Source: Zunongwangia profunda SM-A87
GTDB lineage: Bacteria > Bacteroidota > Bacteroidia > Flavobacteriales > Flavobacteriaceae
Length of the DNA: 64,000 bases
Direction of reading: 5' to 3'
Assembly (NCBI RefSeq): GCF_000023465.1
Contig: NC_014041.1
Location: forward strand, 1,385,001-1,449,000
The notes below the pieces were generated by a model. It was not told where the DNA came from, made no database searches, and saw nothing but the letters and a program-made list of their open reading frames with translations. Positions 6,124-34,053 of this stretch are shown here, one piece after another. How positions within the stretch are numbered: position 1 is the first letter of the stretch; every line of letters starts with the position of its first letter. Position numbers and translations under genes: made by a program.

Positions 6124-6202
6124 CATAAAATATTGTTGCGCGACGATGCAGGAGAAGCCGAAAACCTGAGAGAGAGTAGGCACTTAATTTAATTTAATGA
6201 TT

Positions 6203-10750: not shown

Positions 10751-10760
10751 TTTATGAGGT

Positions 10761-15607: not shown

Positions 15608-15853
15608 TTAAAGATTAAGATCAGTATACTTATCCATAATTTCACCGGTCACAAAACTTTTAAGAGCAATTATTTTATTCTCTTTATTAATATATTCTAC
15701 TTCCACAAAAAATTTGAAAAGTGCGTAAACAGCAAAACGAGAATTCCCCGCTATTACCATATCTAAAAAATCTCCCTGGGTAAATAATAAATCGTATTGC
15801 TCATGATCTGATAATAGTTTATATTGGTAAAGCGTCAAAACCTTCATAATCAA
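15608..15853 (-). CDS. hypothetical small protein
   Basis: An 81-residue soluble protein (VLTLYQYKLLSDHEQYDLLF, then LYALFKFFVEVEY-like helix). The preferred start is the Met at residue 3 (MKVLTLYQ). I recognise no named family, though the YxLLxxxEQYxLLFxxG pattern recurs in small flavobacterial proteins near recombinases. It has its own upstream gap and appears to be a single-gene unit. Confidence 0.55.
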   Translation of the reverse strand: MIMKVLTLYQYKLLSDHEQYDLLFTQGDFLDMVIAGNSRFAVYALFKFFVEVEYINKENKIIALKSFVTGEIMDKYTDLNL

Positions 15854-15961
15854 AAATCTATTAAAAGTAAAAATAATGAAGCAATTTAATATCTGTTACT
15901 ATTAGCGAAATTTTCTAATATTAATTCAAATTCAAGAGTGTAATGATTAGGTTATAATAAT

Positions 15962-16330
15962 TTATTTCTTCATATATTCCTGCCATTGTACAATCAGGTA
16001 TTTATCTTTGCCTGATTTTTTTAAATCTAAAAAACCATAATCATAAACAAAGAAGTACACATCCCCTCTTGAATTTTTCCAGTAATGACTGAAAAAATCG
16101 GGATTAAAACCATCGTTTAAAAGTGCTGTTTTTCGCACCGTAGTATACCCCTTGTAATTGTAAGTTTTTAATATTTTTCGGTTCAATTTCAATTGACGAT
16201 CCACTTCAAAATAAAAAGCCTCTTTTTTCTGTCGCATTTCATATTGATGTATCGACTTACATTTTGTTGAACAAAATTTCTTATCGGTTCTTCCGACAAT
16301 AACAGATTCACAAACTGGACACTTTTTCAT
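15962..16330 (-). CDS. small zinc-ribbon protein
   Basis: The 122-residue protein starts with two Cys pairs, CPVC (residues 4-7) and CSTKC (20-24), forming a probable zinc ribbon of the kind CxxC...KKFCSxxCK. A basic helix and a conserved-looking region about residues 55-110 (YTTVRKTALLNDGFNPDFFSH) follow. Its start is only 12 bases from the hairpin upstream of the recombinase gene, so the two are divergently arranged. Similar proteins are common and uncharacterised in flavobacteria. Confidence 0.6.
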   Translation of the reverse strand: MKKCPVCESVIVGRTDKKFCSTKCKSIHQYEMRQKKEAFYFEVDRQLKLNRKILKTYNYKGYTTVRKTALLNDGFNPDFFSHYWKNSRGDVYFFVYDYGFLDLKKSGKDKYLIVQWQEYMKK

Positions 16331-16342
16331 ACGAATATCTTT

Positions 16343-16372
16343 AAGCGTATATTATGCGACTAATATACGCTT
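16343..16372. promoter_or_regulatory. perfect inverted repeat upstream of the recombinase
   Basis: AAGCGTATATT and AATATACGCTT are exact reverse complements separated by ATGCGACT. The hairpin lies between the divergent zinc-ribbon and recombinase genes, so it could be an operator or a folded recombination or control element. It contains an in-frame upstream ATG (16354) that is probably not the true recombinase start. Confidence 0.5.
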
Positions 16373-16398
16373 TACATCAATATTTTCTGGTAATATTG

Positions 16399-17529
16399 AA
16401 AATGGATTATTTTAGAAACATCAGCCTCTACCATTTAATGATCGGTAAACAAAAGATGATAGGGATTAAATTTCAACCCGATAAGGTCATCCATGGACTT
16501 ATTAAAAGTCTGGACAACCCCAAATGGAGCGACCATTTTAAGATGGTCTATCTACCCAATACCAAGGCAAACCGCTCCCAGATATTCATTACCTTTAAAG
16601 GGGTCGCATGGATCAACTATAACAGGTTTTATAACAATCGCCCTTCCACAACAGGAGCTGCCCAAATAGATAGTTCCTGGTTTCGTAACCGTGATATACC
16701 GGGAGGTTACCGCCGTTGCCCAGAAAATTATCTTTTAAAACTGGAGCTTAAAAGGTACTCTGTTAGTACTATTAAAACATATGTCACTTTCTTTGAAAAG
16801 TTTATTAATCACTATTCACAGCGGGATATAGACAGTCTGGATGAATGTGAGATTAGATTGTTCCTGCAAAGTTTGATACAGGAGAATAAGTCCAATTCCT
16901 ACATCAACCAGGCTATAAATGCCATCAAATTTAATTATGAAGTGGTCTGTGGGATGCCTAACCGGTTTTATGATATGGAGCGCCCCAGACGGGAACACAG
17001 ACTACCCCAAGTTATTTCTAGAGAGGAAATATTTGCGATCATCGAAAACACTAATAATATCAAACACCGCTGTATTGTAGAACTCCTGTATAGTAGCGGT
17101 CTGCGCCGATCAGAACTTTTAAACCTGAAGCTTCAAGATATAGACAGTAAGCGCATGCTTATTAAAATTAAAGCAGGTAAAGGCAACAAAGACAGGTTTA
17201 CTATTTTATCTGAGAAATGCCTTGCCCATTTACGACAGTATTACAGAAAATGGAAACCGGAAATCTACCTTTTTGAAGGGCAACCGGGAAAACAATATAG
17301 CGGAGCGAGTGTACTAAAGGTGGTCAAAAACGCCTCTAGCAAGGCCAAACTGAACAAAAATATAAGTCCGCACATCCTGCGCCACAGCTTTGCTACCCAC
17401 CTTTTGGAATCTGGCGTGGATCTTAGAAAGATACAGGTTTTACTAGGGCATGGTTCTACTAAAACCACTGAAATTTACACCCATGTAGCTACGAATACTT
17501 TTAAATCAATTAAAAATCCTTTAGATTAG
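16399..17529 (+). CDS. tyrosine recombinase (integron-integrase-like role)
   Basis: All tyrosine-recombinase catalytic residues are present, numbered from the upstream ATG at 16354: R251 (SSGLRRSEL), K276 (AGKGNKDR), H340 and R343 (HILRH), H366 (LLGHG), Y375 (IYTHV). An unusual N-terminal region of about 100 residues precedes the SAM-like core-binding domain (YSVSTIKTYVTFFEKF). The interval R251-H340 is 89 residues, as in XerC/D. From memory it is about 130 in IntI1, so the IntI-specific insertion is absent. The C-terminus KNPLD resembles IntI and related Bacteroidetes enzymes. The start at 16399 avoids the upstream hairpin. It is co-oriented with, and directly abuts, the cassette array. Confidence 0.85.
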   Translation, partial: KMDYFRNISLYHLMIGKQKMIGIKFQPDKVIHGLIKSLDNPKWSDHFKMVYLPNTKANRSQIFITFKGVAWINYNRFYNNRPSTTGAAQIDSSWFRNRDIPGGYRRCPENYLLKLELKRYSVSTIKTYVTFFEKFINHYSQRDIDSLDECEIRLFLQSLIQENKSNSYINQAINAIKFNYEVVCGMPNRFYDMERPRREHRLPQVISREEIFAIIENTNNIKHRCIVELLYSSGLRRSELLNLKLQDIDSKRMLIKIKAGKGNKDRFTILSEKCLAHLRQYYRKWKPEIYLFEGQPGKQYSGASVLKVVKNASSKAKLNKNISPHILRHSFATHLLESGVDLRKIQVLLGHGSTKTTEIYTHVATNTFKSIKNPLD

Positions 17530-17548
17530 TCATCGCTAAAAAAGAAAT

Positions 17549-17583
17549 AAACGTACCGGTACGTTTATACATACGTTGTGTGC
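17549..17583 (+). other. attI-like primary recombination site
   Basis: Twenty bases after the recombinase stop lies the perfect 18-bp palindrome AAACGTACCGGTACGTTT. ATACATAC and the core GTTGTGTGC (17575-17583) follow, beginning cassette 1. Two diverged copies with the same layout lie at 29489-29525 and 30307-30343, each also just after a recombinase 3' end. Calling it attI is inference from layout. Confidence 0.65.
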
Positions 17584-17659
17584 AATTAAAACACAGCAGT
17601 CGGAATAAGCCGAAAAAAGACTGAAAACGGAAGTAGGCAAAACAGAAAAATAAAAATTT

Positions 17660-17878
17660 ATGGCACTTTTCAGAATTACAGTAAAACAAAACAATTATTC
17701 AAATGGAATTAGACTTGAAAAAGGTATGACAGTTGACGTTTCTTCAAGATATTCTAATCCAGTAACAACAAATGGAGGACACGAAGTTATTGACGCGTTT
17801 CAAAGAATGTATGGAATTGACATAAAGAAGAACGGTGGACTTTCAACAGTTTATCTTGACGTGAAAAAAATTAACTAA
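17660..17878 (+). CDS. DUF6140-like small protein (cassette 1)
   Basis: The 72-residue protein MALFRITVKQNNYSNGIRLEKG... resembles the DUF6140 family: a short beta-rich protein with a conserved MTVDVSSRYSNPVTTNGG segment. It is the first gene of cassette 1, about 75 bases after the crossover point. Its stop codon touches the start of the nuclease-like gene, so the pair is translationally coupled. No function is known; the coupling suggests a partner or antidote role, which is speculation. Confidence 0.6.
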   Translation: MALFRITVKQNNYSNGIRLEKGMTVDVSSRYSNPVTTNGGHEVIDAFQRMYGIDIKKNGGLSTVYLDVKKIN

Positions 17879-18904
17879 ATGAAATCACGACCAAATCTTT
17901 TTGATTATGCAACTTCTGAGCTTTCTCAAGATGCTTTTTTGACTTGGTTAATTCAATGGGCAGATAAAGACTATCGAGAAATTGATAGTTCTTTAAATGC
18001 TTGTGCAATTTCCTTTGTTCAAGAACTTTTAGGCAAAGACAAATCCTATTCAATTGAAACCATAGAAGCAGGAAGACAATGGAACAACATTGACGTTTGG
18101 GCTTTAGTGAATAACAAATATTTTCTTGTAATAGAAGATAAAAAAGGGACTAAAGAGCATTCAGACCAACTCAACAGATATTCTGAACTCTCTAAAAAGC
18201 ATTACGAAAAATCAGACATTGAGATAAAGCTCGTTTACTTCAAAATGGAAGAACAAGGAAAATACTGCGATATTAAAGAAGCAGGTTTTTCACCTTTCCA
18301 AAGAAGTAAAATGCTTTCTATTCTTACAGACTATTTCAACTCGACTGAACAAGCAAAACAAAACGACATAGTTGTGGACTATTACAAGAACCTTGACAAC
18401 TTGGACAAGAAAATCAAAAGCTACCTGACTAGACCTTTGAATGAATGGTATTGGCATTCTTGGCAAGGTTTCTACTCTGAACTTCAAAAACACATTGGCG
18501 GAAATTGGGAATATGTTGCAAATGCAGCAGGTGGTTTTCTCGGCTTTTGGTGGAATTGGAATTACTCGAAAGTTGACGGAAAAGAATTTGAATATTATCT
18601 ACAATTAGAACAAGACAAATTTGTGTTCAAACTCTATGCGTACAATGAAAATGAGCGTAGAGAAGTCAGAGATTTGTATCGCAGACATTTGTATAAAAAG
18701 GCAAAAGAGTTGAATATTAGTATTTCTCAATTTGGTCGTTTAGGAGCATATATGGGAGTTGCTAAATTGAACTCTGAGTACCGACTTACAAACGAAAACG
18801 GACTTTTGGATTTTCAAGCCACAGTTGAGAATTTAAAAGGACTAATGAAACTTATAAACGAAACCAAAAAAGAAATAACTGCACACAACACCGTGTATAG
18901 TTAA
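17879..18904 (+). CDS. PD-(D/E)XK nuclease-superfamily protein (cassette 1)
   Basis: The 341-residue protein shows the PDDEXK_4-type pattern: an N-terminal LTWLIQWADK helix, then D72 (NNIDVWAL) and E86-D87-K88 (FLVIEDK), the expected D...ExK active site. A long C-terminal region with WYWHSWQGFY and FLGFWWNW follows. Related proteins are often encoded in defence or mobile regions. The ATG follows the previous stop directly. The last residues (HNTVYS) and the stop are encoded inside the attC-like site, so the reading frame ends within the recombination site. Confidence 0.7.
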   Translation: MKSRPNLFDYATSELSQDAFLTWLIQWADKDYREIDSSLNACAISFVQELLGKDKSYSIETIEAGRQWNNIDVWALVNNKYFLVIEDKKGTKEHSDQLNRYSELSKKHYEKSDIEIKLVYFKMEEQGKYCDIKEAGFSPFQRSKMLSILTDYFNSTEQAKQNDIVVDYYKNLDNLDKKIKSYLTRPLNEWYWHSWQGFYSELQKHIGGNWEYVANAAGGFLGFWWNWNYSKVDGKEFEYYLQLEQDKFVFKLYAYNENERREVRDLYRRHLYKKAKELNISISQFGRLGAYMGVAKLNSEYRLTNENGLLDFQATVENLKGLMKLINETKKEITAHNTVYS

Positions 18905-19014
18905 TGGCGGTTAAGTACTAAATTGTAACGCTTTTCATTTGAGTAAAACAAGTGCAAAACCGAAAGTAAAGTGCTTTGAAATCCGCCACTAACCATACAC
19001 AAACCGTTGTAAGC
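18881..19014 (+). other. attC-like site 1
   Basis: R'' box GCACACAAC (18881-18889) and left arm to 18910 (GTGTATAGTTAATGGCGG) pair with the right arm CCGCCACTAACCATACAC (18983-19000). The latter runs into AAACCGTTGTAAGC, the next cassette core (19006-19014). The arms have scattered mismatches and unequal spacers, and the loop is about 72 bases. Confidence 0.8.
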
Positions 19015-19015
19015 A

Positions 19016-19846
19016 ATTAAAACAAACATCCTGCTAACCGAATATTCCATATCAGAAATAATAACCTCAGTCCCAGAAGAAAATATTTTCTACATTGGAA
19101 CATTTGAGGGAACAGAGGGAGCTGACGTAGATTGGCCTCACAGACACGATTTTTATTCACTTGTTTGGTTTACCAAAAGTTCAGGAATAAACGTAATCGA
19201 CTTTGAGGAATACAAAATCATTCCCAACAGAATTTTTCTAATGCAACCCAAACAGGTTCATAATTGGTCATATTCAAATGAATCAAAAGGCTACACTTTG
19301 GTTTTCGATAAACATTTTATAAACCAATTTCCGTTAGAAATAATGAATATTCCGTTTTTTGACCTAAAACCAAATAACATCCAACTTCTAAAACCAATAT
19401 TTGAAAATTTAATTGAAGAATCGAAACTAAACGACAACTTGGGAGAAAAATCGATTGTTTCGGGAGTTAATTATTTGTTGCTTCACTTAACTAGAATGGC
19501 AAACGATTTAAAGAAAAATATAAAACCCAAGCCAACAACGACATTAGAATTCTCGAAATTGGTGGGCACCACCATTTCTCAAAACCTTACGGTAAAAGAT
19601 TATGCTGACCAACTTCATCTAACAGTCGAAAAACTCAATGAACTCTGCAAAGAAAATTATGGACAAAACCCAAAAAATATTATTTTAGAGAAAAAGATAA
19701 CCGAAGCAAAACGACTTCTGTATTTCACAGATTTGTCAATCAAGGAAATTGCTTTCCAATTAGGTTTTGAAGATAGTTCTTACTTCTCGCGAATTTTTAA
19801 ACTAAAGACCAACCTTTCACCTTCGGACTTCAAAAGTACCCGATAA
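19016..19846 (+). CDS. AraC-family regulator without an ATG at the expected start (cassette 2)
   Basis: The frame is open from the TAA at 19010-19012 and encodes a complete-looking AraC protein. An N-terminal cupin-like region (DWPHRHDFYSLVWF) is followed by a C-terminal double HTH (LTVKDYADQLHLTVEKLNEL; LSIKEIAFQLGFEDSSYFSR). The first ATG is at 19241, which would delete the cupin. Thus either ATT/ATC near 19016-19030 initiates, or the native start was lost at the recombination junction. Downstream come three enzyme genes in the same cassette, likely its targets. Confidence 0.65.
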   Translation: MKTNILLTEYSISEIITSVPEENIFYIGTFEGTEGADVDWPHRHDFYSLVWFTKSSGINVIDFEEYKIIPNRIFLMQPKQVHNWSYSNESKGYTLVFDKHFINQFPLEIMNIPFFDLKPNNIQLLKPIFENLIEESKLNDNLGEKSIVSGVNYLLLHLTRMANDLKKNIKPKPTTTLEFSKLVGTTISQNLTVKDYADQLHLTVEKLNELCKENYGQNPKNIILEKKITEAKRLLYFTDLSIKEIAFQLGFEDSSYFSRIFKLKTNLSPSDFKSTR

Positions 19847-19909
19847 ACCTTCAAAAGTCCTACACCTTAACACTACTGTCATTCTATTTTTGCAAAAAAC
19901 AATTTTAGA

Positions 19910-20308
19910 ATGGAAACAAACAACATTAAAATCGTAAAAGATTATTTCGATAAATTTCTCTCAGGCAAAAAAGAAGAGGCTTTTAAGCTATTAGACGATA
20001 AAATTACTTGGACTGTCAAAGGCTCAGATAATGTGCCTACCGTAGGCTTACGAAAAGGGAAAAAAGAGGTAGAGGATTTTTTTCAAAAATTTCAAAACAC
20101 CTTTGAACCTCAAGAGTTTAATATCAACCATTACTTTAGCGATGGAGATTTGGTTTTTGCAATCGGTAATTTCACCCATTACATTAAAGAAAACCAAAGG
20201 TTAGTCAGTAGCGATTGGCTTATAGAATTTGGTCTTATAGATGGAAAAATAACATCGTATAAAATTTTGGAAGATTCCTATGCACTGTATTTAGCATTTA
20301 AAAAGTAA
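19910..20308 (+). CDS. SnoaL/NTF2-like protein (cassette 2)
   Basis: The 132-residue protein has the NTF2-like pattern: helical KDYFDKFLSGKKEEAFKLLDD, then ITWTVKG, a KGKKEVEDFFQKF helix and C-terminal beta strands (DWLIEFGLIDGKITSYKILED). Such proteins are small-molecule-binding or isomerase-like and cytoplasmic. It follows the AraC gene by 63 bases and precedes the hydrolase by four, forming a probable AraC-regulated detoxification or catabolic set. Confidence 0.75.
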   Translation: METNNIKIVKDYFDKFLSGKKEEAFKLLDDKITWTVKGSDNVPTVGLRKGKKEVEDFFQKFQNTFEPQEFNINHYFSDGDLVFAIGNFTHYIKENQRLVSSDWLIEFGLIDGKITSYKILEDSYALYLAFKK

Positions 20309-20312
20309 TTCT

Positions 20313-21116
20313 ATGTCTTATTTTAAAACGGAACTATGTAATTATTTTTTTCAAGAAAAAGGTGCTGGAAAAACATTGATTTTTGCTCACGGATTGTTTG
20401 TTGACCAGACCATTTTTTCACATCAGTTTGAACATTTAAGTAAAAGTTACCATTGTATTTCTTTCGATATGCCTGGTCACGGCAAATCCTCTTTTGGAGA
20501 GAATGGATGGACATTAGACGAAATTGCAAACGATTTTTATGAATTCATCACAGTCAATAATATTAAAAAACCAATATTAATTGGGCAATCTCAAGGAGGA
20601 ATGGTCTTTATGCGATTAGCTACAAAATTTCCAGACTTAGTAGGTGGATTGGTATTAATAGGTACTTCGGCAAAAGCAGAATACAAAGATAGATTGCCTT
20701 TTTGGAAAGAAGTAATTCAAATTTTGAATTCTAAAGATGAAACAAACATTAGTAGCCTACTAAAACAAATCCAAAAAAACGTGGTGTCGGAATATTTTTT
20801 GAAAAACTTTCCTTCTCAAGCCATTCAGGAATTAAGAATGATGCAGAGCCATCATCCAGTTGGTCTGAAATTAGCCACAGAAGCTGCTACTTTAAACCGA
20901 ACGGACATTTCTGCAGAAATTCATAGAATAAAATGCAAAACTTTAATTGTCTGTGGAAAAGATGACCACGCCACGCCTTTAGACCTTTCTGAAATGATGA
21001 AAACAGAAATTAAGCAGGCTCAATTTGAAATAATTGACAATGCATCTCATCATATTCCGATAGAAACACCAGAAACGTTAACGGATTCAATTTCAAAATT
21101 CGTCATAAATATTTGA
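20313..21116 (+). CDS. alpha/beta hydrolase (cassette 2)
   Basis: The 267-residue protein has the alpha/beta-hydrolase layout: oxyanion HGLFVDQ, nucleophile elbow GQSQGG with Ser, acid in CGKDDHATP, and catalytic His in ASHHIPIETPE. It lacks a signal peptide. It is typical of small esterases and lactonases in the 3-oxoadipate enol-lactonase-like group. It lies between NTF2-like and CMD genes with 1-4 base gaps, consistent with a CMD-type lactone pathway. The substrate is unknown. Confidence 0.85.
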   Translation: MSYFKTELCNYFFQEKGAGKTLIFAHGLFVDQTIFSHQFEHLSKSYHCISFDMPGHGKSSFGENGWTLDEIANDFYEFITVNNIKKPILIGQSQGGMVFMRLATKFPDLVGGLVLIGTSAKAEYKDRLPFWKEVIQILNSKDETNISSLLKQIQKNVVSEYFLKNFPSQAIQELRMMQSHHPVGLKLATEAATLNRTDISAEIHRIKCKTLIVCGKDDHATPLDLSEMMKTEIKQAQFEIIDNASHHIPIETPETLTDSISKFVINI

Positions 21117-21117
21117 G

Positions 21118-21585
21118 ATGAAACAATTAACAATTTTAGTAATCCTATTCCTTGCAATCAAAGGGTCTGGACAAACAGAAAAACAAGTAAAAATGGACAC
21201 TACAAAAACAGAACGTTTCAACAAAGGTTGGGATAAATTAAAAGAAATTGACGGACAAGCAGGAGTGAACGTTATTGAAAGCCTAAAAGATGTATCGCCT
21301 GATTTAGCAAAATACACCATCGAATACCCTTTTGGAGATGTTTACAGTAGAGATATTTTAGACAATCGAACAAAAGAAATTGCAGTCGTTGCGGCTTTAG
21401 CAGCAATGGGAAACGTAGAACCACAATTGAAAGTACATATTAACGCTGCCCTAAACGTTGGAGTAACTTCCGAGGAGATTTCTGAAATTATGATATTAAT
21501 GTCGGTCTATGCTGGTTTTCCTTCAGCATTGAATGGGACTTTGGCGCTGAAAGATGTGCTAAAAGAACGAGCATCGCAGGATTAA
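21118..21585 (+). CDS. carboxymuconolactone decarboxylase-family protein (cassette 2)
   Basis: The 155-residue protein has an N-terminal hydrophobic segment (LVILFLAIKGSGQ, a likely signal peptide). A CMD domain follows with LAAMGNVEPQLKVHINAALN and EEISEIMILMSVYAGFPSALN, matching the E...H...G...E...Y.G.P pattern. The CxxC of AhpD-type members is absent. It is the last gene of cassette 2; its stop codon lies just before the R''-like box of site 2. Confidence 0.8.
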   Translation: MKQLTILVILFLAIKGSGQTEKQVKMDTTKTERFNKGWDKLKEIDGQAGVNVIESLKDVSPDLAKYTIEYPFGDVYSRDILDNRTKEIAVVAALAAMGNVEPQLKVHINAALNVGVTSEEISEIMILMSVYAGFPSALNGTLALKDVLKERASQD

Positions 21586-21587
21586 CT

Positions 21588-21785
21588 GCTTACAACAACG
21601 TATATAGCTCATAGCTAATTAGTTACAAACCCAAAGTTAGTGCATATTTGCCAAATCGCCAAATTTTTGAATTTGGCTTTTTGCGTTTATAAGATAAAAA
21701 GAAAATACAAAAATTTGGCTTGTGCTAAACCGAAAAGTCCGTACCTTTTTACTCGCTACGAGCCATATACAAGACTGTTACCAAC
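21588..21785 (+). other. attC-like site 2
   Basis: R'' box GCTTACAAC (21588-21596) and left arm GTATATAGCTCATAGC pair with the right arm GCTACGAGCCATATAC (21755-21770). The site ends with the core GTTACCAAC (21777-21785). The long loop contains an internal hairpin GCCAAATT/AATTTGGC (21658-21677). Confidence 0.8.
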
Positions 21786-21799
21786 AAGCTGAGAAACTA

Positions 21800-22204
21800 T
21801 TGAAAAATTCGATTTTCCTAATAATTTTTATAACATTTCAAGTTCACTCATATGGACAAAATCTTGACGGACTTTATATCTGGAGCGGAGAAATAAAAGG
21901 ACCGAAAACCGATTACGGAATTGTGGAGATAAAAATAGATAGCGATTCGACATACACCCAAACGGACTTTTCAGGTTATAAAGCTGACTTTGACGACCGA
22001 GAAAACAAATGGAACCGCATTGTTCGGAGTGGAAAAATTAAAAAAGATGGTGGATTTTATCTTCTGACTGAAATTGGCAATCGAAAAAATTGGCATCTGG
22101 TCAAAATCCGCAGAAATAAATTAGTTATTTACGGATACAAAAAAAAGAGAAATGGAAAACTGAAAAAAGTGAAAGGAATAGAACTAAAAAAAGCCAGTTG
22201 GTAA
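21800..22204 (+). CDS. hypothetical secreted protein (cassette 3)
   Basis: A TTG at 21800, 23 bases after the crossover, gives a signal peptide (KNSIFLIIFITFQVHSYGQ). A ~115-residue mature domain follows, rich in Lys and Tyr with beta-strand character (LDGLYIWSGEIKGPKTDYGI). The frame is open upstream through the attC-like site, but those codons are recombination-site sequence. The stop TAA lies within the R'' box GTTGGTAAC of the cassette's own site. I recognise no family. Confidence 0.55.
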   Translation: MKNSIFLIIFITFQVHSYGQNLDGLYIWSGEIKGPKTDYGIVEIKIDSDSTYTQTDFSGYKADFDDRENKWNRIVRSGKIKKDGGFYLLTEIGNRKNWHLVKIRRNKLVIYGYKKKRNGKLKKVKGIELKKASW

Positions 22205-22394
22205 CAAAACCTATAAACAATACGCGCTTCGGGCTTAAACCAATGGTTTATGTATTTTTATAATGTCCGCAAAATCTTTTGGATTTTGCTCTGGACAGTA
22301 AAATATATCAAAAACAATAAGATTTTGCTACTTGCGTGGCAGAAAGCAAGCGCTAGTTTGCTCCCGTACTGTTCATAGCTAAACCGTTATACGC
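22197..22394 (+). other. attC-like site 3
   Basis: R'' box GTTGGTAAC (22197-22205) and left arm CTATAAACAATACG pair with the right arm CGTACTGTTCATAG (22365-22378). The site ends with the core GTTATACGC (22386-22394). The loop carries a strong hairpin, GCAAAATC/GATTTTGC, with outer GTCC/GGAC (22265-22296). Confidence 0.8.
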
Positions 22395-22395
22395 A

Positions 22396-22965
22396 ATGAA
22401 AAACATGACTTCAGAAATAACGCTTGACAATGTGGAAGAATTTTGTGTTCCATTTGAATCCCATCCCTTAAAATGGAAATTTGAAGATGAAGATGGATTT
22501 ATTTCTGATGAGTTTAAGGATCAAATTGTACCATTGGAAACAAAAGCTGCCAAATTTCTTTGGAATTTTGAAAGTACCCAAAGACAGCTTGGTAACATCC
22601 CAAAAATGGAACAGCATTACAAAAAGACTTTAGAATTTTATAGTGGTGCTTCATCTAATCAAGAAGTTAAAAAATGGCTATATACTTTAGGGGTTCCATT
22701 TGATCAGAAAGTATTCTGGATTGATCAACCACAATGGGGATTTATTTTGACTTGGAAAATGATCATTAAATATTCAGATGACTTATTCTTTGGTTCTGAT
22801 GCCATTATTTGGGATAGATCTCTGAATTGGTGTTTAAATTATGATCACAATGACATGTTTTATTTTGGGAAAGATCGAATTGATAATGCTGATATAAGGT
22901 CTGAAGAAATATCAGAAAATAATGATATGATGAAGGCATTGATCCTTAAACATCAGAAAAAATAG
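22396..22965 (+). CDS. hypothetical protein, DUF2947-like (cassette 4)
   Basis: The 189-residue cytoplasmic protein has a pattern that recalls DUF2947: LKWKFEDEDGFISDEFKDQI, PLETKAAKFLWNF, a central FWIDQPQWGFILTWK segment, then a strand-rich FFGSDAIIWDRSLNW and MFYFGKDRI. The match is from memory and moderate. The ATG lies one base after the nine-base core, so there is essentially no room for a leader of its own; transcription must come from upstream. No catalytic motif is evident. Confidence 0.5.
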   Translation: MKNMTSEITLDNVEEFCVPFESHPLKWKFEDEDGFISDEFKDQIVPLETKAAKFLWNFESTQRQLGNIPKMEQHYKKTLEFYSGASSNQEVKKWLYTLGVPFDQKVFWIDQPQWGFILTWKMIIKYSDDLFFGSDAIIWDRSLNWCLNYDHNDMFYFGKDRIDNADIRSEEISENNDMMKALILKHQKK

Positions 22966-22968
22966 GAC

Positions 22969-23052
22969 GCGTATAACATCGCCTATACTTCATGCCGAAA
23001 GTGTTATATTCGAGAGGTCGGCACGAAAGTATAGCCGCAAACCGTTGTGCAT
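22969..23052 (+). other. attC-like site 4 (short)
   Basis: R'' box GCGTATAAC (22969-22977) and left arm CCTATACTTCATGCCGA pair with the right arm TCGGCACGAAAGTATAG (23018-23034). There is one extra base in the right arm. The site ends with the core GTTGTGCAT (23044-23052). The loop is only about 20 bases, making this the shortest of the seven. Confidence 0.8.
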
Positions 23053-23056
23053 AATT

Positions 23057-23653
23057 ATGAAGAACATCCAAATTTTAATAATTTTTCTATTTTCAGTTGG
23101 TGTTTATGCACAAAACACAAGCAAAATAAATGCGGATTTAAAACTATCTGACTCTCTGACTTTGGATTCTGAAATCCGAATCTATGCTGGTGGCGGAATA
23201 ACAAATTATTCTTCCCTTTTTAGAATGTACAAGGACAAATCGGACAAATGGAAAGCGGAATTTTACCAGCATTACGCAAAGGTTTCTGGACAAGCAGAAC
23301 TGCAGACTGAAAAGCAAACTCTAAAATCGAAAAATGATATGGAGTATGTTTGGAATAGTATTTTACGAACCAATGTTCAATTCCTTCCAAATATGTCTGA
23401 AATAAAATATAAAATGAGAGAACGTGGAAATGTTGAGCTTGTTGATGGTGAATATCAGCTAACGTGGCGAGCTAAAGAGATTATGGATGGAGTTGGTTAT
23501 AAAGTTCAAATCAAAGCAAATAAAAAATTACACGAAGTTGATTATGGGAATCCAGAAAGCTATTTAAAATATTATCCGGACGTAGATGAATTAATATATT
23601 TCAATGAACTTTTAGATACAATAAAAAAAGAATTTGGAATTTGGAAAGAATAA
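23057..23653 (+). CDS. hypothetical secreted protein (cassette 5)
   Basis: The ATG at 23057, just past the core, yields a signal peptide (MKNIQILIIFLFSVGVYAQ) and a ~180-residue mature protein. Notable segments are IRIYAGGGITNYSSLFRMYK and the YKVQIKANKKLHEVDYGNPE region. The upstream TTG alternative lies inside the core and is unlikely. No family is recognised; it is probably periplasmic. The stop is followed three bases later by the R'' box of its own site. Confidence 0.55.
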   Translation: MKNIQILIIFLFSVGVYAQNTSKINADLKLSDSLTLDSEIRIYAGGGITNYSSLFRMYKDKSDKWKAEFYQHYAKVSGQAELQTEKQTLKSKNDMEYVWNSILRTNVQFLPNMSEIKYKMRERGNVELVDGEYQLTWRAKEIMDGVGYKVQIKANKKLHEVDYGNPESYLKYYPDVDELIYFNELLDTIKKEFGIWKE

Positions 23654-23655
23654 CA

Positions 23656-23792
23656 ATGCACAACACCGGCTATAGTTCATTGCTTTTGACTTTCCTCTCC
23701 GAAAGTACTCGTAAATTTGCTATCTTCGGTTTATGTCGGAAAATCCTCGCGGATTTTCACGCAACGAAACCATAGCCAAACACGTTGCCAAC
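23656..23792 (+). other. attC-like site 5
   Basis: R'' box ATGCACAAC (23656-23664) and left arm GGCTATAGTTCATTGC pair with the right arm GCAACGAAACCATAGCC (23761-23777). The site ends with the core GTTGCCAAC (23784-23792). An internal hairpin GAAAATCC/GGATTTTC (23739-23758) lies in the loop. Confidence 0.8.
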
Positions 23793-23966
23793 AATACATA
23801 ACACTTTCAATATTATACTATTAGTTTAGTTTTCAAAAATAATTATCAACAATCTCACTGATCTTTAAGTGGCTGATTTAAAGACAACTAAATCTACAAC
23901 TAATTGTTTATTCCTTTTTTAATCTATTCTTATTAACAACAAAAAATTTCTTGTTTGTTTTTTATG

Positions 23967-23996
23967 TTTGTTTTTTAATATTTAGTTGTATCTTTG
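23967..23996 (+). promoter_or_regulatory. promoter inside cassette 6
   Basis: A TTTG (23967-23970) and TATCTTTG (23989-23996) fit the Bacteroidetes -33/-7 elements with an 18-base spacer. They lie 12 bases before the ATG at 24008. Cassette 6 is unusual in the array for having about 215 bases of AT-rich 5' DNA and its own promoter. Confidence 0.65.
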
Positions 23997-24007
23997 AAAA
24001 CAGATAA

Positions 24008-24496
24008 ATGATTAATATGGATACTAAAGAGTTTTTAAATAGAAGAATATCAGAGGTCGAAAAAGAGCTTAGTAGTCTTAGAGCTGCGTTATCAGCTTAC
24101 GAAAGATCAAGTTCTAAATCTAATATTAATTCAGAGTATGATACAGATTTACAAGAAGTATCAAATGAAAAGTATGATGGAACTTGGATAGAAAATATTT
24201 TAACAGTTATAAAGAATAAAAATAGATTTCTTCACAATACCGAAATAGCTAATGAACTATATAGCTCATATGCTGATAAGGATAAAAAATCTGTAAAGAG
24301 AAGAATATCAGCTGTTTTGTCTTCTGCATTATCAAAGGGAGAAATTGACAGTTTAACAAATCATCGTTTCTCTAATTCTATTAAAGATACAGTTTGGGGT
24401 AAAAAAGAATGGTTGGACGAACAGGGACAAATAAAAAAAGAATATATGTATACATCAAAAGAAAATAATAAAAACAACAAGACTTTTGATTTTTAA
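24008..24496 (+). CDS. coiled-coil protein with winged-helix-like C-terminus (cassette 6)
   Basis: The 162-residue protein has an N-terminal coiled coil (EFLNRRISEVEKELSSLRAA), a polar linker, then at about 60-140 a winged-helix-like region (WIENILTVIKNKNRFLHNTE, then KSVKRRISAVLSSALSKGEI and a wing ending TVWGKKEW). This suggests a DNA-binding regulator. It has its own promoter and terminator inside the cassette and is followed by a tiny basic peptide gene. No named family was recognised. ATG 24017 is an alternative start. Confidence 0.6.
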   Translation: MINMDTKEFLNRRISEVEKELSSLRAALSAYERSSSKSNINSEYDTDLQEVSNEKYDGTWIENILTVIKNKNRFLHNTEIANELYSSYADKDKKSVKRRISAVLSSALSKGEIDSLTNHRFSNSIKDTVWGKKEWLDEQGQIKKEYMYTSKENNKNNKTFDF

Positions 24497-24501
24497 AAAA
24501 T

Positions 24502-24527
24502 AAAGGATACTCTGAACAGTATCCTTT
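24502..24527 (+). terminator. terminator after the winged-helix-like gene
   Basis: AAAGGATACT and AGTATCCTTT form a perfect 10-bp stem around CTGAAC, starting six bases after the stop codon. Confidence 0.65.
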
Positions 24528-24582
24528 ATACGGAATTGGAAAGTCCAATTCTTTAATTTCACTAACTTAAACTCATTTTAAA

Positions 24583-24675
24583 ATGGCAAAAGTTGTTAGA
24601 AGAGTGATTACGGTTCGACCAAAAATCACAATCACTCGTACTGTGAGAATTACAACTAGAACAACTAGAAAGTAA
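24583..24675 (+). CDS. 30-residue Arg/Thr/Val-rich peptide (cassette 6)
   Basis: The ORF starts at ATG 24583 and encodes a 30-residue peptide containing MAKVVRRVITVRPKITITR and ending RTTRTTRK-like (TTRTTRK). Nine of 30 residues are Arg or Lys and there are no acidic residues. It is bracketed by a terminator upstream (24502-24527) and a second terminator downstream (24687-24714), so it behaves as its own small transcription unit. It could be a toxin, a nucleic-acid-binding peptide or a chance ORF; the bracketing argues for a real gene. Confidence 0.5.
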   Translation: MAKVVRRVITVRPKITITRTVRITTRTTRK

Positions 24676-24686
24676 TTCAATTAAAG

Positions 24687-24714
24687 GGCGGAGATAAAAT
24701 CTTCGCCTTTTTCT
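24687..24714 (+). terminator. terminator after the 30-residue peptide gene
   Basis: GGCGGAGA pairs with TCTTCGCC (one G-T pair) around a short A-rich loop, followed by a T-rich run. Confidence 0.7.
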
Positions 24715-24837
24715 TTGACAAAAATAGTATATTTTATCGATTATATTACAGGAACTGGTGGTATTTTTATGAGGCGTTTAATTAATGTGAAAGGAATAAT
24801 TTCCATAGATTAACTACATTTATGCTAAAAAAGTACT

Positions 24838-25040
24838 GTTGGCAACACGCACAACATATATAACAAATAGCCAAATCTTTTCTAAATCGTAAATTTTGGT
24901 ATATTTGGTTAGTCGCCAAATCTTTTGATTTGGCTTTTTGAACTAAAATTAAAAATCAAAACACAAAAGTTTTGGCTTGTGACGAATCGAAAATAAATCA
25001 TTTTTGCTCGCTACTTGCCATATATAAACACGTTGTGAGC
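24838..25040 (+). other. attC-like site 6
   Basis: R'' box GTTGGCAAC (24838-24846) and left arm TATATAACAAATAGC pair with the right arm GCTACTTGCCATATATA (25010-25026). The site ends with the core GTTGTGAGC (25032-25040). The loop holds the hairpin GCCAAATC/GATTTGGC (24915-24934), nearly the same as in site 2. Confidence 0.8.
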
Positions 25041-25043
25041 AAT

Positions 25044-25625
25044 ATGAGAAAAACGCTATCGATACTAATTTCACTTCTGATTTTATCTTGTGACAAGTCG
25101 GAAAACAAAACGATTGACTACGGAGCGTTTGAAATAACAGTTCCGAAAAGTTGGTCAGAATATAAAATAAAAGGAATTGACAGCTATGTTAGCGGATTGA
25201 TAACAGACAAAAACGACACGCTGATTTTTGATTTAGGTTGGTACTCACCTGATTTGACTAAAAACCCAGAGGTGTTGGTATTTGAGCAATCTGAATATGC
25301 AGAATTTAGTGACAAGCAAAAAAAGCAATTAGAAAATGTAAAGCATTTAGTTATTGAGGACTTTCTAACCGCTGAATATGACGCAAAAGATTACTTTAAG
25401 TACGAATACGAATTGGACAGTATTGACTGCTTTATAGCTAAATTTATAAAGCCAAAAAATAAAGGATATGGAGTAAGTGGAATTTACATTGACAGCTTAA
25501 AAGGCGGTGGACCGAATTCTAACAAAACTAGTTTGAGTTTTTATGGAAATAATCTATCTGACTCAACGCAAACTGAATTTTTTAAGGCATTAAAAAGCAT
25601 AAAACTGACTGAATATTGTGAATAA
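25044..25625 (+). CDS. hypothetical lipoprotein (cassette 7)
   Basis: The ATG at 25044, three bases after the core, gives a lipoprotein signal (MRKTLSILISLLILSC) and a ~178-residue mature domain. It contains YGAFEITVPKSWSEYKI and ends SLSFYGNNLSDSTQTEFFKA, a strand-rich pattern like small flavobacterial surface lipoproteins. The longer upstream frame reads through the attC-like site and is rejected. The stop lies six bases before the R'' box. Confidence 0.6.
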   Translation: MRKTLSILISLLILSCDKSENKTIDYGAFEITVPKSWSEYKIKGIDSYVSGLITDKNDTLIFDLGWYSPDLTKNPEVLVFEQSEYAEFSDKQKKQLENVKHLVIEDFLTAEYDAKDYFKYEYELDSIDCFIAKFIKPKNKGYGVSGIYIDSLKGGGPNSNKTSLSFYGNNLSDSTQTEFFKALKSIKLTEYCE

Positions 25626-25631
25626 AATACT

Positions 25632-25918
25632 GCTCACAACAATGGTAACTGTTGCACAAGCCTATATTTCTAAAAAAAGAGAATTATCCTGATTTTTCGT
25701 AATAGATAAGTTATTGTTATTCAAATTTATCGTATTCTTTAAAACTACTTTTATTTCGAATTTTGATTCAAAAAGAACTTGTGCAACAGGCACAATGTAT
25801 AACCGCAATTACGGCGGATTCGACTTCGTCCGAATCCACTCGGAATTGCTAAGCCAGTTCTAAACCGAAAATTAACGCATATTAACCCGTAACTGACGGT
25901 TATACGAGACCGTTGTGC
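25632..25918 (+). other. attC-like site 7, interrupted by a small insertion
   Basis: R'' box GCTCACAAC (25632-25640) is separated by a 147-bp insertion from its left arm GTATAACCGCAATTACGG (25797-25814). That arm pairs with the right arm CCGTAACTGACGGTTATAC (25887-25905). The site ends with the core GTTGTGC (25912-25918). An internal hairpin GGATTCG/CGAATCC lies at 25816-25837. Confidence 0.75.
25645..25791. mobile_element. MITE-like element inside attC-like site 7
   Basis: CTGTTGCACAAG (25649-25660) and CTTGTGCAACAG (25778-25789) are perfect 12-bp terminal inverted repeats around AT-rich non-coding DNA. ACAATG flanks it on both sides (25639-25644 and 25792-25797), a six-base target duplication. 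Removing it restores a normal site. No transposase is encoded. Confidence 0.65.
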
Positions 25919-25964
25919 TTAATTCTGCCCCGTCCTGAATAAAGGCTACATAATTTTAAATATT

Positions 25965-26959: not shown

Positions 26960-28129
26960 TATGACAAGAAAAAGGGCAGTGCCGGAGTCGATGGACAGAG
27001 TTTACAGAATTTTAGGGAGAACCTCTCTGGAAATTTGTATAAAATCTGGAACCGTATGACCTCAGGCAGTTATTTTCCGCCTGTTGTAAAGGAAGTTCGT
27101 ATAACCAAGAAAACAGGAGGCTTTCGCAGTCTCGGAATTCCTACGGTATCGGATCGCATTGCGCAACAGGTGATTAAAAGTTACTTAGAACCCAAGGTGG
27201 AAAGCAGTTTTCATCAGAATAGTTATGGATACAGACCCAGGAAAAGTGCGCATCAGGCACTGGAGAAAACAGTGTCCAGATGTGGTTATTACAGTTGGGT
27301 GGTAGACCTTGATATTCGTGGATTCTTTGATAACATTGACCATACCCTACTGATGAAGGCAGTAGAAAGGTATACAAAAGAGAAATGGGTGTTGATGTAT
27401 ATTGGAAGGTGGTTGAAAACAGGAGTATCCAGAGAAGGTGAAATCACCGATAGAATAAAAGGTACTCCTCAAGGCGGCGTCATTAGTCCGCTACTTGCCA
27501 ATATATTTCTTCACTTTGCATTCGATAAATGGATGCAAATCCATCACTCCAATATGCCTTTCGAACGATATTGCGACGATGCCATCATACATTGCACATC
27601 AGAGAAACAAGCATATTTCATTAGAGAGGCTGTTTCTAAACGGATGAAAGCTTGTAAGTTGGAACTCAATAGTGAGAAAACTCACATTGTGTATTGCAAG
27701 AATCACGTGCACAGCGAAAGTCACAAGAATACAAGTTTTGATTTTCTCGGTTACACGTTCCGCCCCCTCAGACGACCAACCAAAAATGGTTGGAAACTGA
27801 CTTACTTTCCAGTAATGAGCCACGCCTCAAAGAAAGAAGCAAGGCGAAGACTTAAGAAGGTTGTCAATAGAAAGTTTCGGGGATCCATCCAAGAACTGGC
27901 ACAGATAATCAACCCTATGATAAGGGGCTGGTATCAATATTTTTGCAAGTATTCGAAATGGACAACCCGTGGACTATGGTATTGGTTAAACAGGAAAATA
28001 GTTAGATGGATTAGGAGGTACAGAAAGCGCAGTAGAGTGCAAGCTCGAAAATGGCTAAAAAATGTGTACAAGACTAACCCACAATTGTTTGAGCATTGGA
28101 AACCTGTCTTAGATATAAAACCTTACTAA
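26960..28129 (+). pseudogene. ltrA: group II intron reverse transcriptase/maturase, 5'-damaged
   Basis: The long frame encodes RT domains of the group II class (PTVSDRIAQQVIKSYLEP, VVDLDIRGFFDNIDH, GTPQGGVISPLLANIFLH, catalytic YCDD) and a GIIM maturase domain (MIRGWYQYFCKYSKW). KGSAGVDGQSLQNF, normally near residue 40, is in frame from about 26970. The N-terminus before it lies in another frame, consistent with one A lost from the A-run at about 26968. The usual 5' ribozyme of several hundred bases is absent. The RT active-site Ala of YADD is Cys. Confidence 0.75.
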
Positions 28130-28131
28130 TT

Positions 28132-28219
28132 GTACCGTTAATCTGGAAGCGCCGTATGATGGGAGACTATCACGTACGGTGCTGTGAGAGACTTGGGGTG
28201 AAATTCCCCTTGTCTACTC
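28132..28219 (+). ncRNA. group II intron 3' end (domains V-VI)
   Basis: GCGCCGTATGATGGGAGACT and CACGTACGGTGCTG form a domain-V-like hairpin. A GGGG/CCCC domain-VI stem follows, and the tail is TTGTCTACTCGAC. This directly follows the maturase stop and abuts IS66 coding sequence, so the intron had inserted into that transposase gene. Confidence 0.7.
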
Positions 28220-28220
28220 G

Positions 28221-29008
28221 ACCCCATAAAAGTGATGGATAAAAACAAAAAGGGCACCACCCATCAGGGCTATTACTGGGTGTACCATTGCCCTATAGAT
28301 AAAACCGTACTCTTTGATTACCAACCCGGACGAAGTGCCCAGGCTGCCCAGCACGTATTATCTGGATTTAAAGGCTACTTGCAAAGTGACGGGTACAGCG
28401 TATATGACAAAATCGGAGCACGGGAAGGGATTACGCACCTGAACTGTTGGGCACACGCTCGAAGAGAATTTACCAAATCCCTGGATAATGATAAGCAGCG
28501 AGCTGAAATAGCCCTGACTTATATCCAAAAGCTTTATAAAGTCGAAGCCAGGGCCAGGGAAAACAACCTGGATCCCGAGCAACGAAAAGCGCTTCGCCTG
28601 GATGAATCCTTAAAGATCCTCGAGGGGTTTGGTAAATGGATGGTAGATGAATTACAGAAGAACCACATCCTACCGAAAAGTCCGATAGCAAAAGCCATAC
28701 ATTACACCTTGGGTAAGTGGGACAAGCTACACACCTATTTATATGATGGAATCCTGGAGATTGATACGAACCTTACTGAGAATGCCCTTAGACCCCTTAC
28801 AATCGGAAGAAAAAACTACTTGTTCGCCGGGTCTCATAATGCAGCACAGCGATCGGCGTGTATTTATTCCTTTATGGCTATCTGCAAAAAGCACGACGTG
28901 AATCCGCAGGAGTGGTTAAAGCATACCCTGGAGAATATTCTCACTATCAATCATAAAAACCTCCGGGATCTGTATCCACAGAATTATAAAAAACTAAAGA
29001 ATACCTAA
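28221..29008 (+). pseudogene. IS66-family transposase, C-terminal half
   Basis: The frame IKVMDKNKKGTTHQGYYWVY joins the intron end. It continues with IS66 hallmarks: LQSDGYSVYDKI, HLNCWAHARREF, LTENALRPLTIGRKNYLFAG and an ACIYSFMAICKKH tail. The 5' half is not present upstream of the intron, so a deletion or rearrangement followed intron insertion. The right end of the element is probably near 29080 (GTGGGGTGCATAC-like). Confidence 0.8.
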
Positions 29009-29256: not shown

Positions 29257-29316
29257 GTGCACAATAACTAAGCGTTCGTGTGGCCGGAACGGCCTAACAT
29301 GAAGATCCTGTTGATT
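29257..29316 (+). other. compact attC-like site A (type 2)
   Basis: R''-like GTGCACAAT then AACTAAG and the arm GCGTTCGTGTGGCCG pair through a GAA loop with CGGCCTAACATGAA, ending CTGTTGATTGG. The GGCCG-GAA-CGGCC hairpin recurs at 33992-34053 and in diverged form at 30054-30110. Confidence 0.6.
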
Positions 29317-29360: not shown

Positions 29361-29467
29361 AGCCGTTAGGCGAGGGGAGTATTGAGAGTAATCCAGGTTG
29401 AGTTTTTACGCATAACTACTGGAATTTATACTTGTCTTTTAAAACAACTAAAAATGCGGTAAATTTA
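29361..29467 (+). pseudogene. 3' stub of a cassette recombinase (platform 2)
   Basis: The DNA aligns with the last ~35 codons of the intact recombinase. TTGAGAGTAATCCAGGTTGA matches LRKIQVL, and ACTACTGGAATTTATACT matches the TTEIYT box carrying the catalytic Tyr (here TTGIYT). A shortened FKSIK-like tail follows. It is degenerate and cannot be functional. The attI-like site of platform 2 follows. Confidence 0.6.
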
Positions 29468-29488
29468 GTGTTCTCTAAAATAGAAATG

Positions 29489-29525
29489 AAGGTACCGGTA
29501 GGTTTATATTTATGTTGGGCGCAAG
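29489..29525 (+). other. attI-like site of platform 2
   Basis: GGTACCGGTAGGTTTATATT then TATGTTGGGCGC corresponds base-for-base in layout to the attI-like site at 17549 (ACCGGT centre, TTTATA, core GTTGGGCGC at 29514-29522). It begins the next cassette. Confidence 0.55.
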
Positions 29526-30287: not shown

Positions 30288-30306
30288 TGTTTTAACTAAA
30301 ATGGAT

Positions 30307-30343
30307 ATAACACAACTTGTTTTGTTATCCGTACGTTGGGGGC
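30307..30343 (+). other. attI-like site of platform 3
   Basis: The inverted repeat ATAACACAAC/GTTTTGTTAT (30307-30328) replaces the ACCGGT palindrome in the same position. CCGTAC and the core GTTGGGGGC (30335-30343) follow. The layout matches the other two sites while the palindrome sequence differs. Confidence 0.55.
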
Positions 30344-30385
30344 AATTTGACAAAATCACTAATGAATACCATTTTGAAATAATTA

Positions 30386-31324: not shown

Positions 31325-31460
31325 AAGGCACAACAATGGCTATAAGTAATTGCTTGTTCTCGCATACTTCTGAAAATCCTCACGGATTTTCAGTCTGGTG
31401 TATACTTGCAAAGTTAAGTCCTAACCTACGCAACTACTCATAGCCTAACCGTTGGGCAAA
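31325..31460 (+). other. attC-like site between platform 3 cassettes
   Basis: R''-like GGCACAAC and left arm GGCTATAAGTAATTGC (to 31353) pair with the right arm GCAACTACTCATAGCC (31430-31445). The site ends in the core GTTGGGCAAA (31451-31460). A perfect 10-bp internal hairpin, CTGAAAATCC/GGATTTTCAG, lies at 31370-31393. It is the same class as sites 1-7. Confidence 0.75.
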
Positions 31461-31475
31461 ATAAATAATCGATTA

Positions 31476-33991: not shown

Positions 33992-34053
33992 TTTGCCCAA
34001 TAACTAAGCGTTAGTGTGGCCGGAACGGCCTAACATGAACGCACTGTTGACTA
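33992..34053 (+). other. compact attC-like site C (type 2)
   Basis: R''-like TTTGCCCAAT, AACTAA, then GCGTTAGTGTGGCCG pairs through a GAA loop with CGGCCTAACATGAACGC, ending CTGTTGACT. Stem arms GCGTT and AACGC match exactly. This is the clearest of the three type 2 sites and closes the SIR2-STAND cassette. Confidence 0.65.

Follow-up and report, generated by a model that had tools for sequence, protein, structure and literature searches.

The window, a stretch of 64,000 nucleotides from the flavobacterium Zunongwangia profunda SM-A87 (NC_014041.1, positions 1,385,001 to 1,449,000; positions below are those of the window), holds an integron-like array of gene cassettes behind a gene for a tyrosine recombinase. 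This recombinase, or integrase, of 391 residues is encoded on the forward strand (16354-17529), ending 45 bases before the first cassette start. The putative attI site directly behind it (17547-17583, forward strand) consists of a perfect 22-bp palindrome ATAAACGTACCGGTACGTTTAT (17547-17568), a 6-bp spacer and a predicted crossover GTT at 17575. Seven consecutive cassettes each start with a GTT nonamer (at 17575, 19006, 21777, 22386, 23044, 23784 and 25032) that is the perfect reverse complement, at 9/9 bases, of a box at the end of the same cassette (at 18881, 21588, 22197, 22969, 23656, 24838 and 25632, in the same order), as a first-pass annotation of this DNA had pointed out. The distance from start to own box is 420 to 2582 bases; of the 0.6-2.6 kb given earlier, the lower bound is too high for cassettes 3 and 4. 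The feature exceeds the range first assigned to it (17549-25918), including the recombinase gene and a further attC site at 31326-31459. Eight further GTT nonamers in the window have a reverse complement within 4 kb, and were taken as chance pairs.

All the open reading frames assigned to the seven cassettes lie on the forward strand, in agreement with the single orientation described before. Cassette 1 (17575-19005) carries a DUF6140 gene (17660-17878) and a PDDEXK_4 nuclease-like gene (17879-18904), the latter resembling the PADLOC candidate PDC-S26. Cassette 2 (19006-21776) encodes an AraC-type regulator, a SnoaL-like protein, an alpha/beta hydrolase and a carboxymuconolactone decarboxylase-like protein. 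The others have a single gene each: those of cassettes 3 (21777-22385), 5 (23044-23783) and 7 (25032-25910, the gene ending at 25625) match no Pfam family, that of cassette 4 (22386-23043) has a weak DUF2947 match below the cut-off, and that of cassette 6 (23784-25031; gene at 24008-24496) has no credible family. An eighth start, GTTGTGCTT, follows at 25911-25919 on the same strand, for which no perfect own end was found within 4 kb.

At each junction, the end box (R'') of one cassette, two longer inner arms (L'' and L') and the start (R') of the next form an attC-like site on the bottom strand; the inner arms pair, as had been noted at the outset. These sites were scored with a covariance model (R1) built from 25 in-array sites. 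The site attC 1 (18881-19014, 134 bp, R'' GCACACAAC), itself used for model building, scores 93.0 bits and is more stable as the bottom strand; attC 5 (23656-23792, 137 bp), likewise a model-building site, scores 90.9 bits. The scores are 60.9 bits for attC 2 (21588-21785, 198 bp), 28.5 bits for attC 3 (22197-22394, 198 bp), 29.4 bits for attC 4 (22969-23052, 84 bp) and 39.3 bits for the part 24847-25040 of attC 6 (24838-25040, 203 bp). In attC 6, a second R''-like sequence, GCACAAC, comes immediately after R'' (24838-24855), as if two ends had been joined. Six of the seven sites are uninterrupted, and attC 7 (25632-25919) is split by an insert of about 155 bp between R'' and L'', the part 25786-25920 scoring 55.6 bits. 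This insert, with inverted ends, resembles a miniature inverted-repeat transposable element (MITE); its copies at 25640-25797 and in a second array of the same genome (locus L021, 12690-12855) are 97% identical and lie in attC sites of both arrays, and the MITE-like element may target attC.

The complementarity of cassette starts to their own ends was tested in six other hit-rich loci, none of which had been used for R1. Since R'' and R' of each site in the model come from different cassettes, the model would, if anything, favour pairing within the adjoining site. With partial hits and opposite-strand doubles left out, there were 134 full-length hits, all in the AAC/GTT register, and 128 cassettes between consecutive hits, with 74 different starts. 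The own end was fully complementary at the six variable positions in 113/128 cassettes and the adjoining site in 3/128, which bears out the claim that the adjoining site pairs less well; on average 5.81 of the six positions matched at the own end, compared with 2.37 at the adjoining site and 2.14 under permutation. The pairing beyond the nonamer was followed in 73 chained cassettes from 25 loci, weak single chains (L050, L051, L054 and L076) as well as G031 and G022 (looser limits) being left out. One of the 73 is probably wrong, because the first start in L044 was taken at a GTT inside the attI palindrome, and another comes from a genome of Spirochaetota (L084) without a model hit; L064 has no chain, yet 10 model hits. 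Positions 10, 12, 13, 14 and 15 are paired in 64%, 84%, 92%, 75% and 40% of these cassettes, whereas position 11 is paired in none of the 73 (and in 7% of the 113). Position 11 is A in 72/73 and the base facing it is C in 58/73, an arrangement in which the top strand has an A-C mismatch where the bottom strand has a G-T wobble. The L arms show the same bias, with 190 differences of the A/G and C/T kinds compared with 44 of the G/A and T/C kinds, besides 238 of other kinds. In predicted folds of 72 attC sites (one site longer than 210 bp was left out), the bottom strand is more stable in 70, by 3.9 kcal/mol on average. The bottom-strand L stem is ungapped over at least 12 pairs in 67/72 sites, and the test for extrahelical bases of the IntI type on the L'' arm was negative.

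The integrase consists of an extra N-terminal region of about 120 residues, a SAM-like core-binding domain and a catalytic domain, and ends in IKNPLD. It matches PF00589 (6.4e-41) and PF13495 (9.5e-14), and scores 226 bits against NF040815 (cut-off 220), the NCBI name of which already includes 'integron integrase'. Against TIGR02249, the profile of the integron integrase IntI, it reaches 208 bits, below the cut-off of 265 and split into two stretches. The R-K-H-R-H-Y set is present as R251, K276, H340, R343, H366 and Y375, which are invariant in 14 aligned integrases and which we take to have the catalytic roles. A HARP-like domain, considered for the N-terminal region, was not confirmed, and Pfam gave DUF5710 at best at E 0.02 in 2/14 members. 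The additional domain specific to IntI is absent: profile positions 280-301 enclose 20 positions, compared with 63 residues (180 to 244) in IntI4 (2a3v). In the tree, 12 IntI sequences of the phylum and four other rows form a clade of 16 (support 100/100), while 28 of the 29 rows labelled as array fall in a different clade of 40 (support 97/93); this label comprises 15 rows with chained arrays and 14 of alignment A1, not all of them chained, and the root is arbitrary. Recombinases of 412-683 residues at L083, L075 and L079 make a separate clade, the one at L083 being followed by five chained cassettes, and may represent a further integrase lineage that uses sites of this type. Relatives with 80% coverage of the integrase were present in none of 53 phage records and in 10/146 plasmid records. 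One plasmid, of Chryseobacterium sp. SNU WT5 (L161), carries an integrase of the same kind, named 'integron integrase' by NCBI, followed by one chained cassette and four model hits.

The integrase gene is present twice in the genome, about 2.16 Mb apart; both copies are open reading frames, and their products differ at 3 of 391 residues (99% identity). The second module is 97% identical at the DNA level over 15626-17585 of the window and unrelated beyond. The identity extends for eleven bases from the first cassette start, GTTGTGTGCAA, a start common to both copies, and other genes follow, the pattern expected from insertion at one attI. In the second copy, cassette 1 measures 1410 bp from start to R'' and has one gene, presumably for a nucleoside hydrolase as judged by eye, and cassette 2 measures 609 bp from start to R''. 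An attC site of this array contains an insertion sequence (L021, about 9860-11480), which we take by eye to be IS1182-like. The chain finder halts at insertions; cassette 7 and the greater part of the second array therefore escaped it and were recovered with the covariance model.

Relatives show the same layout. An integrase homologue was found at E 1e-40 in 38/60 genomes, our own genome counted. By eye, a GTT nonamer of the same type follows the integrase at about 45-150 bp in 18 of the 20 loci viewed (the window's own included), with a different sequence after each, and is missing from the other two (L010 and L017). In many relatives, chained cassettes that match their own ends come next. 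The test that had been named, a search for different contents at the same attI, thus came out as predicted both within the genome and across relatives. Palindrome arms of at least 8 bp occur in 13/29 attI loci, compared with 1.1% of shuffles, the palindrome not being universal. Among named genomes, a scan retained 80 loci, of which 79 were tested (at L065 the match reaches the contig end); at least one chained cassette was found in 20/79, compared with 2/79 after shuffling, and at least two in nine. Winogradskyella ursingii has four, Seonamhaeicola aphaedonensis six (the first start doubtful), Flavobacterium aciduliphilum three, and Algoriphagus ornithinivorans and Zunongwangia mangrovi two each. 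On the plasmid pPP2 of Persicobacter psychrovividus, a stretch of 40 kb (L158) contains 52 attC sites (E up to 0.1); the integrase for this array was not located. A further part of pPP2 (L159) has more short genes, mostly in one orientation. The array DNA of the window matches 88/199 genomes of the family, its own included, and the matches listed are mostly short stretches over an attC. Homologues of cassette 5 occur in four other genera; in three of them homology begins between 3 bp before and 1 bp after the start, and in the fourth it runs from 6 bp before the start through to the cassette end. Genes of cassette 2 are shared with a fifth genus, where homology sets in 10-12 bp upstream of the start. 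As judged by these boundaries, single cassettes appear to move between genera as units.

Such an array in a flavobacterium is much less unusual than the first-pass annotation supposed, attC being widespread in the phylum: model hits occur in 147/296 genomes of Bacteroidota and in none of 26 others, a negative control chosen for distant recombinases with no positive genome inside (filters in the phylum scan were stricter). In the window's class, 54/73 genomes have attC, and so do 37 of the 40 with this integrase (odds ratio 11.6, p 1e-4). In the other classes, attC is found in 41/49 genomes with the integrase (odds ratio 12.0, p 1.3e-11) and in 36/85 with canonical IntI (odds ratio 1.04, p 0.89). 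The attC sites thus go with this integrase and not with IntI. Canonical IntI above the TIGR02249 cut-off is present in 84/296 genomes of the phylum; one of the 73 genomes of the window's class has an IntI match, and the genome of the window gave none. Outside the class, model hits were also obtained in 13/60 genomes with IntI but without this integrase and in 39/114 with neither, so that there attC alone is no proof of the enzyme that made it.

With a recombinase gene, an attI directly behind it, tandem cassettes, complementarity of each start to its own end and different cassettes at one attI, the locus is very probably an integron-like cassette array, in which cassettes are predicted to enter and leave at attI and at attC sites folded from the bottom strand, through the action of the neighbouring recombinase, which has no IntI-specific domain. 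The earlier proposal of an integron-like array served by a non-IntI recombinase is supported in this respect, the integrase not being a canonical IntI. We have high confidence that the system works like an integron. It is not a member of the IntI integrons as defined, since tests for two integrase features and for extrahelical bases in attC came out negative; because the enzyme belongs to a clade of its own, it is called here an integron-like system of Bacteroidota. In the proposed mechanism, R' and R'' would once have been parts of one circular molecule, for which reason the cassette ends match. The folded bottom strand of attC would consist of an R stem and a mostly ungapped L stem with G-T wobbles, separated by a short, asymmetric spacer that is unpaired, and the integrase would cut at GTT. 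The strand would be chosen by the wobbles, which become A-C mismatches on the top strand; it is G-T wobbles, more than extrahelical bases, that seem to decide the choice. That the additional domain is missing and the extrahelical bases mostly so may mean that the mark is another one here and is recognised by another part of the enzyme.

Three other explanations were weighed. The one that survives best is that the system worked in this way and is now a relic fixed in the strain, which differs from the integron-like reading only in the present state of the system, so that the odds of the two overlap. A MITE-like insert in attC 7, an insertion sequence in an attC of the second array and orphan attI sites with integrase 3' ends downstream fit such decay. 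We nevertheless hold it to be rather unlikely, given two integrase copies that are both open with 3 differences in 391 residues, six uninterrupted attC sites out of seven, and two modules that are 97% identical and yet have different cassettes, which makes the turnover recent on that scale. Far less probable is an ordinary integron, in which a canonical IntI, present or recently lost, built the array and the adjoining recombinase is an unrelated Xer-type enzyme. The logic of attC is that of integrons and IntI does exist in the phylum, but the genome has no IntI match, IntI occurs in one genome of the class where attC occurs in 54, the association of attC is with this integrase, and attI lies directly behind this integrase in relatives. 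Two distant integrase copies, each with attI and cassettes, would also speak against a role in dimer resolution of the Xer type. Finally, that the sites are transposon ends or dispersed palindromic repeats with genes between them by chance, as their palindromic, repeated nature and their single occurrences elsewhere in the genome might suggest, has next to no likelihood and is refuted in the main, since each start matches its own end and not the adjoining one despite 74 different starts among 128 cassettes, and arrays start behind an integrase.

Several points weigh against the integron-like reading itself. Recombination by the neighbouring integrase is deduced from sequence and no event has been observed. 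The array at L083 adjoins an integrase outside the main clade, and 16/73 genomes of the class have attC hits but neither integrase at the limits used. Intact-looking integrase loci L057, L071, L072 and L090 have no chained cassette in the 10 kb behind them, and L163 of Persicobacter sp. JZB09 has none and only two model hits; some arrays with insertions may be dead. The own end matches at 5/6 positions in 12/128 cassettes and at 2/6 in 3/128. Fold energies are predictions, and a single bulge improves the L stem in 21/72 sites, so that not every site lacks extrahelical bases. Integrases were counted by an E-value limit of 1e-50 instead of a curated family, and the Fisher tests behind the odds ratios treat related genomes as independent.

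Further elements lie downstream of the array. At 27035-28222 there are matches to a reverse transcriptase of group II introns and to a group II intron RNA, with an IS66 transposase match behind them. Orphan attI-like sites at 29450-29510 and 30290-30345 come after integrase 3' end remnants recognised by eye, each opening a further cassette-like stretch, and another such site in the second array (34839-34925 of L021 and L022) comes after an integrase 3' remnant found by tblastn and likewise opens one. A repeat with a core like GTGTGGCCGGAACGGCCTAACATGAA is present in three copies (near 29260, 30090 and 33995), each ending a cassette-like stretch; the copy at 33995 is preceded by TTTGCCCAA, the complement of the start at 31451 except for the last base. 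This start opens the stretch behind the further attC site (31326-31459, bottom strand, 95.2 bits), where a gene with SIR2-like and STAND NTPase parts and similarity to ThsA (31452-33986) is a possible defence cassette. Rfam gave nothing over the whole window but one group II intron and one DUF805b RNA, the latter at 6148-6182 between two open reading frames.

The system shares with IntI integrons an integrase followed by attI, tandem cassettes mostly in one orientation with starts complementary to their own R'', GTT/AAC boxes, and a bottom-strand hairpin with an R stem, an unpaired central spacer, an L stem and a variable terminal structure, all as set out in PMC2727003. According to the same account, IntI integrons have 9-11 consecutive pairs in the R arm and two to three extrahelical bases in attC, on which strand choice rests (PMC2727003), whereas the R arm here extends over about 14 positions with a wobble at 11 and the L stem is mostly ungapped with wobbles. 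The integrase of the window differs in its missing additional domain, its place outside the IntI clade and its extra N-terminal region, and the system also differs in the attI palindrome of the 13/29 loci and in the many attC sites of 132-140 or about 198 bp. The R' sequence is GTTR in 72/73 chained cassettes, compared with the canonical consensus GTTRRRY. Passages of PMC9668308 and PMC8138268 regard the additional domain of IntI as necessary; the former treats it as defining, PMC2426708 uses it as a selection criterion, and its profile is what IntegronFinder seeks (PMC9668308). Canonical integrons are known in Bacteroidota (PMC8618304; PMC2426708), sharing the phylum and the attC arrays, and canonical IntI was confirmed here outside the window's class. 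A passage of PMC9024848 gives one complete integron of Bacteroidetes, that of Salinibacter ruber M1, besides those of Chlorobi and Ignavibacteriae, in contrast to attC in 54/73 genomes of the class here. From XerA and XerD-type recombinases, the integrase differs by its tie to attI, attC and cassettes as well as by its N-terminal region. Among open-access titles and abstracts, a scope that leaves out subscription papers and preprints, no description of cassettes or attC sites with such an integrase was found.

Resistance genes occur as cassettes of this kind. On a plasmid of Bacteroides xylanisolvens, four attC sites in a row (58.6, 50.6, 25.8 and 62.1 bits) bound aadS, ere(D) and tet(X2), ere(D) being in the opposite orientation. 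The ends of these three cassettes have ten matches, a mismatch at position 11 and four matches, which is the pattern of the other arrays, and tet(X2) on a plasmid of Myroides odoratimimus has the same ends. On a plasmid of Acinetobacter indicus, a gene for a short version of the integrase (53% identity over residues 159-391) stands upstream of tet(X3), and tet(X3) itself starts at an attI-like site, with a palindrome and then a GTT at the base where homology with tet(X2) begins. Counting against the tet(X3) case, no model hit was obtained behind the gene, where only an R''-L''-like half-site was seen by eye, the R'' of which differs from the complement of the start at 3/9 bases. In their passages on tet(X), three papers place xerD beside the gene in Acinetobacter and Flavobacteriaceae and do not describe tet(X) as a cassette (PMC7473080; PMC7494873; PMC11194056); in one of them, no integron was predicted next to tet(X14), and the role of XerD in moving tet(X) is said to remain to be tested (PMC7473080).

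Collectively, it is likely that Bacteroidota have an integron system of their own, in which a separate integrase lineage would read wobble-marked hairpins more than extrahelical bases. It would have escaped notice because programs look for the IntI domain, and surveys of that kind would not see it in the window's class. The system would be one of the main platforms for gene exchange in the phylum, and tet(X), aadS and ere(D) would have been mobilised from it as cassettes, the 'xerD-tet(X3)' unit that Acinetobacter now carries among them. It may likewise be relevant to aph(3')-IVb of Riemerella, a gene with an attC-like fold behind it, the uptake of which is described as homology-independent with an integration mechanism unknown (PMC13148043). 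If the reading is true, it offers a concrete and testable reply to what PMC7473080 leaves unanswered, namely whether tet(X) is moved by the recombinase next to it. An integron could then also work without the IntI domain that is regarded as essential, so that the strand-selecting feature and the enzyme part reading it could be compared between two lineages.

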